From an uncultured Mucilaginibacter sp. (lineage in GTDB: Bacteria; Bacteroidota; Bacteroidia; Sphingobacteriales; Sphingobacteriaceae): a stretch of 39,691 bases of DNA. The stretch is taken from assembly GCF_937859865.1 (NCBI RefSeq), contig NZ_CALMAT010000103.1:1-39691 (forward strand). The letters are read 5' to 3'. This document shows, in pieces, positions 20,977 to 31,387 of this stretch. The position numbers and the translations under genes are program-made. How positions within the stretch are numbered: position 1 is the stretch's first letter; each line of letters opens with the position of its first letter. The notes under the pieces were generated by a model. That model ran no database searches. It saw nothing but the letters and a program-made list of their open reading frames with translations, and had not been told where the DNA came from.

Positions 20977-21000
20977 GATACTTCTTTTACCGATGTTTTT
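20977..21000 (+). repeat. Motif unit abutting the SDR stop codon
   Basis: GATACTTCTTTTACCGATG then a T-run. It starts 2 bases after the SDR stop and fills most of the 38 bp convergent gap. Confidence 0.7.
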
Positions 21001-21012
21001 TTGGTGGATTTG

Positions 21013-21931
21013 TTAGTTGAAAGATTGCCGAAATTCCAAGGGAGAAAAGTTGGTTTTGGTCTTGAATAATTTGCTGAAAGACTGCGGATGCTCAAAACCC
21101 AATTCGTATGCAATTTCACTTACTGATAAACCGGTGGAGGATAATTTCTCTTTTGCCTTTTCTATCAGTTTATCGTGTATGTGGTGCTGTGCATTTCGTC
21201 CGGTTAGCGAACGCAGCATATCACTTAAATAACTTGGGGAAATATTTAAGTGTTCTGAAAGATATTGAACTGTCGGAATCCCCTGGCTTAAAGATTTATT
21301 GTTGTTAAAATAGTCGTCTAAAATTTCTTCCAGCTTTTGTAACAAATTATTGCTTACTGCTTTGCGGGTGATGAACTGGCGTTTGTAAAAGCGGTTGGCG
21401 TAATTGAGCAATAATTCGATTTGTGAAATTAACACCTCCTGGCTAAAATCGTCTATCCGGCTGTTCAGCTCCTCTTCCACAATATTAAAAATCGAAATGA
21501 TGGTCGCTTTTTCTTTATCCGACAGGTGCAACGCTTCATTGGCCGAATAAGAAAAGAAGCCGTACTGCTTGATTTTTTTTGCCAAAGGGTAAGACAATAA
21601 AAAATCGGGGTGGATGAGCAGCATATAGCCCGAACTTGCATCATTGTCAGGAGGGGTTTCAAACAGTTGGTTTGGTGCGGTAAAAACTAAACCGCCTTCA
21701 CCAAAATCATAATAATTTTGTCCGTATTTGGCTTTGCCGCAAAGATTTGTTTTATACGAAATTTTATAAAAATCCAGCATAAATGAACTGAACCGTTCAT
21801 CGCCGATGATTTTTTACATCTTTTATATTTATAAAACTAATCATCGGGTGCAAGGGCTTTGGCAAGCCGAACACGCAATGAAAGTCGGTTAAAGATTCAA
21901 ATTTTCGAGGTGAATGTTCTTCCTTTTTCAT
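21013..21931 (-). pseudogene. AraC-family regulator broken by a +1 frameshift (A6 run)
   Basis: From 21780 down to 21013 an open frame encodes 255 residues of an AraC regulator, with the C-terminal double HTH (SVSEIAYELGFEHPQSFSKL). Its paralogue at 30467-31387 is 306 residues. The missing N-terminus is present upstream in another frame: ATG at 21929-21931, then an ORF whose GLPKPLHPMISFIN segment matches the paralogue's GLPKPEHPLISVIN and that stops soon after. The frames join at a run of six T on the plus strand (21810-21815, A6 in the gene). Removing one base gives a single 305-residue reading frame that aligns to the paralogue without gaps at the junction (DVKIIGDERFSSFMLDFY). So this is a frameshifted gene, a phase-variable switch or a sequencing error. 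A shorter functional product from the 21780 ATG cannot be excluded. Confidence 0.85.
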
Positions 21932-21975
21932 TTTGCAATTTAGGGCCTGTTTAAATTTATACCAAAAAAACTGTT

Positions 21976-22066
21976 AATGCTTCTTTTATCCGGTAAAAAT
22001 TGGTGTTGCATTAATTTGAATAAATCTAATAAATAGCTTGCCATTTTTTAGGTGATAAAAGAAGCA
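21976..22066. repeat. Inverted pair of motif units
   Basis: Forward AATGCTTCTTTTATCCGG with TAAAAATTGGTG (21976-22004) and reverse CCATTTTTTAGGTG with ATAAAAGAAGCAT (22041-22066). It lies between the SDR/NmrA genes and the frameshifted AraC gene. Confidence 0.85.
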
Positions 22067-22123
22067 TAAAATAATATTGAATAAAATTTAACCGAGCTAT
22101 TAATTTAAACTTCTTTAAAATTT

Positions 22124-22861
22124 TTACCAAGGGATTTCTCCGGTTTCCGGGTTGCTTTCTTCACTAAAAAACTTTCCTGTAGGGCCATCAGCATCAATCA
22201 TGGCATATTTAACGATACGTGTGCCAGCTTCTTCAACAGTCCCGGTTCCGCGGTGGTTATTAAAATCGGTTTTAACAAAGCCAGGGTCAACCGCATTTAC
22301 TTTAACCGGTGTATCCTTCAGTTCATAAGCCAGAATAATGGTGTACATATTCAGTGCCGATTTGGAAGGTTGATACACGGCCCCTTTATGGTTATAGTAT
22401 TTATTAGTTGGATCGCTGGCCTGGGTAAGCGAACCTTGGCTCGAACTTACGTTTACAATACGTGGCTCCGGCGACTTTTTCAGCAAATCAATAAATGCCT
22501 GGGTTACTCTTATTACACCATAAAGATTGGTGTTGAAAACATTTTTAAATTGATCAATACTTGCAGCCAAGGCACTCTGCGGCATGCCGCCTGTGATGCC
22601 CGCATTATTAATAAGCGCATCTAATACGTCTGTTTTTTTACCTATTTCAGTTCGTGCTTCTTTTACCGATTCAGAATCGCTCACATCAATTTGTACCGCT
22701 TCCACTTCGTTCAAGCCTTCGGCCTTTAGTTTTTCTACCGCTTGCTGACCCTTTTTTAAATCACGGCTGCCGAGGTAAATATAATATCCCTTTTGCAATA
22801 GCTGCCGTGCGGTTTCAAAACCAATACTTTTATTGGCCCCTGTAATTAATACTTTTTTCAT
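22124..22861 (-). CDS. SDR family oxidoreductase (carbonyl-reductase-like)
   Basis: A 245-residue short-chain dehydrogenase with TGANKSIGFETA as the cofactor motif, NNAGITGG, the Ser motif NVSSSQGSL, and a Tyr/Lys pair in YQPSKSALN. The insert before the active-site Tyr (SDPTNKYYNHKGAV) is typical of plant and Bacteroidota carbonyl-reductase-like SDRs. It is 20 bp downstream of the NmrA-like gene on the same strand, so they probably form an operon. A motif-like stretch at 22653-22670 encodes VKEAR. Confidence 0.85.
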   Translation of the reverse strand: MKKVLITGANKSIGFETARQLLQKGYYIYLGSRDLKKGQQAVEKLKAEGLNEVEAVQIDVSDSESVKEARTEIGKKTDVLDALINNAGITGGMPQSALAASIDQFKNVFNTNLYGVIRVTQAFIDLLKKSPEPRIVNVSSSQGSLTQASDPTNKYYNHKGAVYQPSKSALNMYTIILAYELKDTPVKVNAVDPGFVKTDFNNHRGTGTVEEAGTRIVKYAMIDADGPTGKFFSEESNPETGEIPW

Positions 22862-22881: not shown

Positions 22882-23784
22882 TTATTGATGATAAACCTGT
22901 GCAAAGTCTTTAGCAAAGTCTGCCAGTTTCACTTTACCCAACCTTGGTTTGTTGCGGTAATAATCTTCGTACAATAAGCCGCTTCTTTGGCTTGCCTGCA
23001 TTTCTACAAGCCCATTGGCCAATTGTGGGTTAATACCTGCACCTAACATTCCATTTAATAGTTGTTCGTCCGGGATTACAAGCCATTTTAAATCCGGGTT
23101 TCCGATTGCTTCCCCCAAAACTTTTGCTATTTCGTTTGGCGAAACTTCATCACTTGCTATGTAACGAATGGTTCTTCCCGCAAAAGGCAATTCCATTTCT
23201 TCGGCAATGGCAGATGCAATGTCCAATGGCGAAACCCAAGGTTCTTTGTCATCGCCGCCATGATTTGAAATAACTGCAGCTTGCGCCTTTATGGTTTGCA
23301 TAGACCTGAAGATATTGGTGAAAAAACCGACAGGGCGCATAAATTTAATGGAAACATCGTTTGGCAATTGGTTCAAAATATTTTCAACCTGATAATGAAC
23401 AGAAAGAGAACCGTACCCTTTCGCGCTATGTGCGCCAATGCTGCTTAAATGCACCACGCGTTTTACGCCCGACTGTTCAACAGCTTGTTTGTAATTGTTG
23501 CCAATTTGGCGCATACCTGCTTCAAAATCAACATCTTTGTCAAATAAACTCCCAATACCTTCCCACGTTTCCATCAAATAAACTATATCCGCACCTTTAA
23601 AAGTTGCCGATAAAAAATCTGGATCTTGCATGGTGCCAATAGCTACTTTTGCGCCTAATGCTTCAATGTCTTTTTGTCTTTCGGCTTTACTGCTGATGAC
23701 CGTAACCGCATGCCCTTTTTCTACCAACTCTTTTGTGAGTGGTTTTCCGATGTTCCCTATAGAACCTGTAATTATTATTTTCAT
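22882..23784 (-). CDS. NmrA-like / atypical SDR NAD(P)-binding protein (copy 1)
   Basis: A 300-residue Rossmann protein of the NmrA/NAD(P)H-azoreductase-like atypical SDR group. It has an ITGSIGNIGKPL dinucleotide motif, VVHLSSIGAHSAKG, and the C-terminal region with PFAGRTIRYIASDE. It could be a quinone or azo reductase, or a redox-sensing regulator without catalysis; sequence does not decide. The start at 23782-23784 (MKIIITGS) matches its paralogue at 31406-32299. An upstream in-frame ATG at 23817 would add 11 residues and is not supported. It leads a minus-strand unit with the SDR gene. Confidence 0.85.
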   Translation of the reverse strand: MKIIITGSIGNIGKPLTKELVEKGHAVTVISSKAERQKDIEALGAKVAIGTMQDPDFLSATFKGADIVYLMETWEGIGSLFDKDVDFEAGMRQIGNNYKQAVEQSGVKRVVHLSSIGAHSAKGYGSLSVHYQVENILNQLPNDVSIKFMRPVGFFTNIFRSMQTIKAQAAVISNHGGDDKEPWVSPLDIASAIAEEMELPFAGRTIRYIASDEVSPNEIAKVLGEAIGNPDLKWLVIPDEQLLNGMLGAGINPQLANGLVEMQASQRSGLLYEDYYRNKPRLGKVKLADFAKDFAQVYHQ

Positions 23785-23908
23785 TTTTTTGCTTTTTGTT
23801 GTTGCAAAAGTGGGCAACTGTTGAAAGGTAGCTATAACCTAATTGAGGAATTTTGTAGTCAAAATGAGAAAGTTGTTAAACAGCTATAGCCAAATTCATT
23901 GTTGAACC

Positions 23909-30466: not shown

Positions 30467-31387
30467 TCAGTTAAAAGCATTTCTAAATTCCAAAGGCGAA
30501 AGGTTGGTTTTGCTTTTAAACAATTTGCTGAAAGACTGCGAATGCTCGAAACCTAATTCATAAGCAATTTCGCTGATGGATAACCCGGTGGTGGATAGTT
30601 TTTCTTTTGCTTTCTCGATCAGTTTTTCGTGGATGTGTTGCTGGGTGCTTTGCCCGGTCAGTACTTTCAGCATCGCGCTTAAATAATTGGGCGAAATGTT
30701 TAAGGCTTGGGCAACATCGGCAACAGCAGGCAAACCGTGTTTTGCAATGGCTTCGCTTTTAAAGTTTTCAGACAAGATTTCCTCCAAACGATTCAAAATA
30801 CCATGGTTCGTAATTTTCCGGGTCAGGAATTGGCGATGGTAAAAACGGTCGGCATAATTCAGCAATAATTCAAATTGAGCAATGATAATATCCTGGCTAA
30901 ATTTATCCATGTTGGCACAGTATTCCTGCTCCATGTTTTGCATCATGCCGATGATCGTAGTTTCCTCTTTTTCCGACAAAAACAAAGCCTCGTGCACCGA
31001 ATAACTAAAATATTCGTACTGCTTTATTTTTTTGGCAAGCGGCGTGTTCCACAAAAAATCGGGATGGACGAGCAGCATCCAACCCGTATGTTTGATGCTT
31101 GTACCTTTGCCAACTTCAATTCCTAAAACCTGTCCCGGCGAAATAAAAAACATGATGCCTTCATCAAAATCGTATTCCTGCTGCCCGTATTTCATCTTTG
31201 CATTGAAATCCTTTTTGAGCGAGATGGAATAAAAATCAAAGATGATACTGATGGATTCTTTGTAAGGCAAACGTTTGATTGATTCAAAATTGATCACACT
31301 AATTAAAGGGTGTTCCGGTTTCGGAAGGCCCATCAACTGGTGGTATTCGCTTATCGTTTTTATGCGGAAAGGTTGGTTGCTTGCCAT
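30467..31387 (-). CDS. AraC-family transcriptional regulator (intact paralogue)
   Basis: A 306-residue regulator with an N-terminal cupin-like ligand domain (about 1-180) and a C-terminal AraC double HTH (LSISEIAYELGFEHSQSFSKLF). It is a close paralogue of the frameshifted gene at 21013-21931, with identical stretches such as HEKLIEKAKEKL shared almost exactly with DKLIEKAKEKL. It lies 18 bp downstream of an NmrA-like gene on the same strand, mirroring the NmrA-SDR-AraC order of the first locus, so it probably regulates this small operon and is encoded in it. Confidence 0.92.
   Translation of the reverse strand: MASNQPFRIKTISEYHQLMGLPKPEHPLISVINFESIKRLPYKESISIIFDFYSISLKKDFNAKMKYGQQEYDFDEGIMFFISPGQVLGIEVGKGTSIKHTGWMLLVHPDFLWNTPLAKKIKQYEYFSYSVHEALFLSEKEETTIIGMMQNMEQEYCANMDKFSQDIIIAQFELLLNYADRFYHRQFLTRKITNHGILNRLEEILSENFKSEAIAKHGLPAVADVAQALNISPNYLSAMLKVLTGQSTQQHIHEKLIEKAKEKLSTTGLSISEIAYELGFEHSQSFSKLFKSKTNLSPLEFRNAFN

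Follow-up and report, generated by a model that had tools for sequence, protein, structure and literature searches.

A one-base frame break in an AraC-family regulator gene and, in a neighboring repeat, a 14-mer that is a candidate DNA-uptake sequence of one genus

DNA-uptake sequences are described in one account as reported only from the Neisseriaceae and Pasteurellaceae (PMC12616744), and one treatment of their features argues that uptake signal sequences (USS) are not insertions. For Riemerella columbina, a preference for self-DNA was reported in an account that leaves open any uptake sequence (PMC7965970). Regulators of the AraC/XylS family (PF12833 and PF00165) share a C-terminal helix-turn-helix domain, and pseudogenes that arose recently through a single indel share one disabling change, no further decay, and an intact copy in a sister genome. 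The window (i.e., the whole stretch of 39,691 nucleotides analyzed here) corresponds to contig C103 of the genome assembly G000 (3.98 Mb in 177 contigs). It contains an AraC-family gene, referred to below as the window araC, in which the family domain is whole; the gene differs from the rest of the family in being split by one base, with 10 homologues of 302 to 309 aa. All three properties of recent single-indel pseudogenes are shared by the window araC, which differs from them in that its disabling change is known from the assembly alone.

A single open frame of approximately 300 aa was absent from the window araC, in which translation would stop after 44 codons (Table 1). On the 255-aa piece downstream of this stop, a domain search detected AraC-type helix-turn-helix matches above the cutoff (PF12833, 6e-20; PF00165, 2.3e-12). 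The upstream ORF is not fortuitous, because 34 of its first 40 residues are the same as those of L010, the copy of the gene in the sister species G002 (compared by eye). The original prediction, which described a T6 run at 21810-21815 and placed the N-terminal codons and the remainder of the gene in different frames, was borne out on both counts: the run is present in the sequence, and the frame that begins with the ATG at 21931 ends at the stop at 21799-21797, with the remainder (21780-21013) in a separate frame. Its proposed repair also worked. With one base of the run dropped, read-through translation yielded a protein of 305 aa; the paralogue at 30467-31387 has 306 aa and L010 has 304 aa.

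Table 1. Coordinates of the features discussed in the text (positions within the window)
Feature	Position	Strand	Remarks
Broken AraC-family regulator gene	21013..21931	-	One extra base
Upstream piece	21797..21931	-	ATG at 21931, 44 codons, then premature stop TGA (21799-21797)
Downstream piece	21013..21780	-	255-aa ORF, HTH_18 / HTH_AraC; ATG 16 nt beyond the premature stop
T6 run (A6 on the coding strand)	21810..21815		Place of the extra base in the original prediction
Stretch in which loss of any single base opens the araC frame	21799..21816		
Short-chain dehydrogenase gene	22124..22861	-	Upstream of araC; synteny shared with the sister species
NmrA-like NAD(P)H-binding gene	22882..23817	-	Syntenic in the sister species
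Dispersed repeat between the dehydrogenase gene and araC	21937..22125 (approximate edges)		29-bp gap instead in the sister G002
Exact 14-mer ATGCTTCTTTTAYC in the repeat	21977..21990	+	
Other copy of the 14-mer in the repeat, in opposed orientation	22054..22067	-	
Variant copy ACTTCTTTTACC	20980..20991	+	Between a plus-strand dehydrogenase gene and araC

The assignment of the extra base to the T6 run itself held only in part. When each position was tried, the drop of any one base within 21799-21816 gave an open araC frame. In the alignment with L010, the run was the best site (score of 1302 versus 1297 for the next, a lead of 5 units), and with L012 it was ahead by 1 unit (982 versus 981), whereas the alignments with L011 (1091 versus 1087) and L002 (990 versus 981) favored positions further 3' than the run. 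On these scores, the extra base most likely falls in the A6/T6 run. This placement and an otherwise intact frame are what phase variation, in which reversible slippage in the run would toggle the regulator, would lead one to expect, with the run being the best site against the nearest orthologue. However, the extra base may lie outside the run, A/T runs of six bases are common in G000 (686 in the coding sample described below), the sister L010 is without a six-base run at the corresponding place, and none of the 10 homologues is out of frame. A phase-variable tract would be unusually long for its genome or kept in relatives, and the A6 tract was neither. A longer run within the window araC (T8 at 21573-21580) is in frame. 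We consider phase variation, one of three readings offered by the original prediction, to be extremely improbable.

In the sister species G002, the gene is represented by L010 as a syntenic, intact copy with 77% DNA identity, preceded as in the window by the dehydrogenase and NmrA-like genes. Ten homologous loci (L002, L003, L005, L007, L010 to L014, and L021, a set that includes the paralogues of G000 itself and leaves out further araC-type loci) were each a single ORF, unbroken at the break site of the window. Of 569 confirmed matches in named genomes, the 80 best were analyzed; in all 80 loci, the frame was open for 40 codons or more ahead of the match to the 255-residue piece, and all 80 upstream stretches resembled the N terminus of L010 (lowest score, 78; shuffled upstream peptides, 43 or less). 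The corresponding values for the window's own frame upstream of that match were 11 open codons and a score of 16. The many other disabling changes in relatives that were named beforehand as evidence against the original prediction were thus not found, with the 10 loci and the best 80 of the 569 named-genome loci being open at this place.

The read-through gene showed a dN/dS ratio of 0.042 relative to L010, at a dS of 2.5, which is near saturation. With L011 as an outgroup, 14 residue changes were assigned to the window branch and 27 to the branch of the sister, and 18 were ambiguous. Because of this ratio and the smaller number of changes on the window branch, the window araC appears to be free of decay, and the break would be either very recent or not real. 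Constraint across the entire gene is also what would be seen if the gene worked as it is, either through a restart at the ATG located 16 nt after the stop or through ribosome or polymerase slippage, and the ATG at 21780 does open a 255-aa ORF with the entire helix-turn-helix domain. The first 40 residues are kept as well as the remainder, however, which restart alone would not explain, and slippage would require a +1 shift at a site that is not conserved in the sister. We recognized no known recoding signal at the break. Function of the gene in its present form is therefore judged to be very unlikely.

Frame breaks elsewhere in the assembly bear on whether the extra base is an error. A two-strand coding model was run on 384,336 bases of G000, consisting of the window and 20 further stretches, which were picked for holding copies of the neighboring repeat and are not a random draw. 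The model reported 48 same-strand frame switches, nearly all of which were judged by eye to mark the boundary between adjacent genes, the downstream gene having its start codon close to the stop of the gene before it; for 9 of these switches, translations were inspected (8 joined reads). In a control with planted insertions, carried out on 12 of the 21 stretches, 58 of 87 insertions were detected (51 of 56 at 150 nt or more from the segment end, 7 of 22 at 60 to 150 nt, and none of 9 at shorter distances). The window araC break falls in the zone that the model sees poorly, and the model missed it. Runs of at least six bases in the sampled coding segments numbered 1028 for A/T and 5 for G/C. 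In addition to the six-base A/T runs counted above, coding segments of at least 300 nt in this 384-kb sample held 342 longer A/T runs, of which 279 had seven bases, 57 had eight, 5 had nine, and 1 had at least ten. By a coding-model test that is weak near gene ends, the G000 assembly does not suffer widespread frame breaks at long A/T runs, and this argues against a platform with heavy homopolymer error.

A homopolymer-prone assembly was accordingly rejected as a general explanation, as few breaks were left in the 384,336 bases (L120 and L124), neither of them at a run of six or more. The break at L120:13659-14512 (contig C165) affects a second AraC-family gene, in which one base was gained at a T4 and another at a C3, with the frame sound elsewhere, and which is intact in both sister species (291 aa each). 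This double gain may reflect either another recent loss or poor local assembly. At L124:16-643 (contig C83), the N-terminal part of a gene identified by eye as a cysteine desulfurase enters an unrelated frame and is a possible gene remnant. A further frame switch, at L110:2742-3037, did not clearly correspond to neighboring genes. An apparent break in radA (L123) was withdrawn; the gene is in frame. Its apparent start codon (gene named by eye; L123:6236-6234, minus strand) is TTG and not ATG.

The two remaining readings from the original prediction, very recent loss and sequencing error, both stand, with loss being favored. An assembly or sequencing error, under which the gene would be intact, agrees with the strong constraint on the window araC and its freedom from other damage, with the intactness of every homologous locus (the 10 loci and the best 80 of the 569 named-genome loci), and with the presence in the same assembly of a second conserved gene with two one-base gains in a sound frame (L120). 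The absence of decay is equally compatible with an error and with a recent event. Arguing against an error, there was no flood of homopolymer breaks among the 1028 A/T and 5 G/C runs, in a test that is partial and blind near gene ends; the L120 and L124 breaks lie away from such runs; and the T8 run inside the window araC stays in frame. An error is thus a serious possibility to which we assign a lesser, though appreciable, likelihood.

We lean toward a very recent one-base gain that knocked out the AraC regulator in the G000 strain. What is directly observed is that the frame is broken, that the sister orthologue is intact, and that no other damage accompanies the break. Slippage in or near the A6 run would have added the base, and the gain would be real and recent, leaving the strain without a full-length AraC protein. 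A 255-aa product that begins at the ATG past the stop and is minus approximately 50 N-terminal residues could still be made. The lost gene would be the regulator of the cluster formed by the NmrA-like gene, the dehydrogenase gene, and araC, and the hairpin-forming repeat between the dehydrogenase gene and araC, which the sister lacks, may have lowered both the expression of araC and the cost of its loss. The frameshift itself matters little, as it adds one more regulator that was recently lost or wrongly assembled.

The dispersed repeat upstream of araC holds an inverted pair with 30-nt arms that are 83% complementary, and the region 21935-22125 folded below all 200 shuffles (z of -3.25). No Rfam match was obtained in the window at the gathering threshold, and the reading of the repeat as a known RNA family was dropped, as was that of plasmid or phage sequence, for which there was no match. 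Among the matches listed, 50 further alignments of the repeat were found in G000, some of which represent both strands of one copy and one of which is the self-match, and more alignments were found in G001 and G002. None was found in the other 38 genomes among the 10 candidates scored per genome. In the sister species, a motif related to the repeat lies just downstream of araC, at approximately 2440-2480 of L010.

The 14-mer found twice in this repeat, in its arms, is ATGCTTCTTTTAYC; it occurs in exact form 1479 times in G000, 1357 times in G001, and 711 times in G002, the three genomes of the genus that were searched. Forward and reverse copies were close to balanced (745 and 734, 690 and 667, and 373 and 338, respectively). 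Each of the other 57 genomes in the 60-genome search had 0 or 1 copy, and in a phylum-wide draw of 395 genomes, the other 394 contained no more than 3 copies each, a number that a control with the reversed pattern also reached; the two draws overlap. The window contains 23 exact copies (e.g., at 2842, 6949, 7031, 10347, 12275, 21977, 22054, 31703, and 39384), and the 10-mer GCTTCTTTTA occurs in it 33 times versus 0.68 expected. Chi is strand biased, and a Chi-like recombination signal was set aside because the 14-mer is without strand bias.

Further properties of the motif emerged from the stretches of G000 picked around repeat copies. In these 384 kb, the 12-mer core occurred 254 times (one per 1.5 kb), with 254 perfect versus 120 one-off copies, compared with 0 and 9 for the reversed control. 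Copies within 130 nt of each other were merged in the spacing test, which gave a coefficient of variation of 0.70 in these selected stretches, versus 0.87 for random placement (standard deviation, 0.06), with none of 500 random sets as low. Unpaired sites were divided 63:71 by strand, and heterogeneity per stretch gave a P value of 0.85 (16 stretches). Opposed pairs accounted for 158 of 346 half-sites, a share inflated by the choice of stretches. The 188 unpaired half-sites yielded the consensus ATGCTTCTTTTA(T/C)C followed by four loose bases, a weaker aAAAaTt tract, and a faint GT; 84 of them were located in the 14% of the sequence called noncoding and 104 in coding segments.

Comparisons with the sister species, which share the motif, were possible in coding sequence in 15 cases at only 8 sites. 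Seven were conserved, 5 showed substitutions without a nearby gap, and 3 had a gap nearby; 4 edge and 16 noncoding comparisons were counted apart. Additionally, a looser scan detected a variant coding copy at 22656 in the dehydrogenase gene; the sister sequence there shows substitutions alone. The 14-mers as mere remnants of the longer repeat were rejected as a sufficient explanation, because 104 of the 188 unpaired half-sites are coding and some differ from the sisters by substitutions only.

Judged by its genomic pattern, the 14-mer appears to bear most of the hallmarks of DNA-uptake sequences, with a putative function in uptake. We consider it somewhat probable that ATGCTTCTTTTAYC, together with its downstream AT tract, represents a third DNA-uptake-sequence system, which would have evolved independently in one genus. 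If this is true, the genus would be naturally transformable and would prefer self-DNA, and the broken regulator would be only the accident that led to the 14-mer. A nucleoid- or terminator-related role may be the alternative explanation. A ComEC-type gene was present in all six genomes checked; it is not specific to the genus with the 14-mer, because three of these genomes belong to other genera. An uptake dialect in other genera was not supported in 40 kb from each of ten genera, where the top 10-mers (the eight best ranked per genome) reached 7 occurrences versus 33 in the window. In searches on uptake sequences in Bacteroidetes and related topics, none of the titles and beginnings of abstracts listed reports the motif, and the 12-mer string was found in two publications, concerning, by title, Campylobacter jejuni transporters and lung cancer. 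A third, unrelated uptake sequence would, if true, provide an independent replicate for studying the causes and course of uptake-sequence evolution, and it could offer geneticists a route to transform this group.

The putative uptake sequence differs from USS and the DNA-uptake sequences (DUS) of Neisseria in that its sequence is unrelated and its host genus lies outside both families. It is known here from genomic pattern alone, and it is less dense, with one exact copy per 2.7 kb in G000 versus the approximately one core per kb given for the known systems. In the descriptions of the Pasteurellaceae USS and Neisseria DUS in PMC1626085 and PMC12616744, several traits correspond to those of the 14-mer, namely, very many copies within one clade, the lack of strand bias, regular spacing, opposed pairs, a preference for noncoding sequence, and an excess of perfect over one-off copies. 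Coding copies that differ from those of sisters by substitution only, seen for the 14-mer at a few sites, may likewise be shared with the systems described there. With the USS of Haemophilus and other Pasteurellaceae, as portrayed in the same two sources, the 14-mer additionally shares a downstream AT-rich tract.
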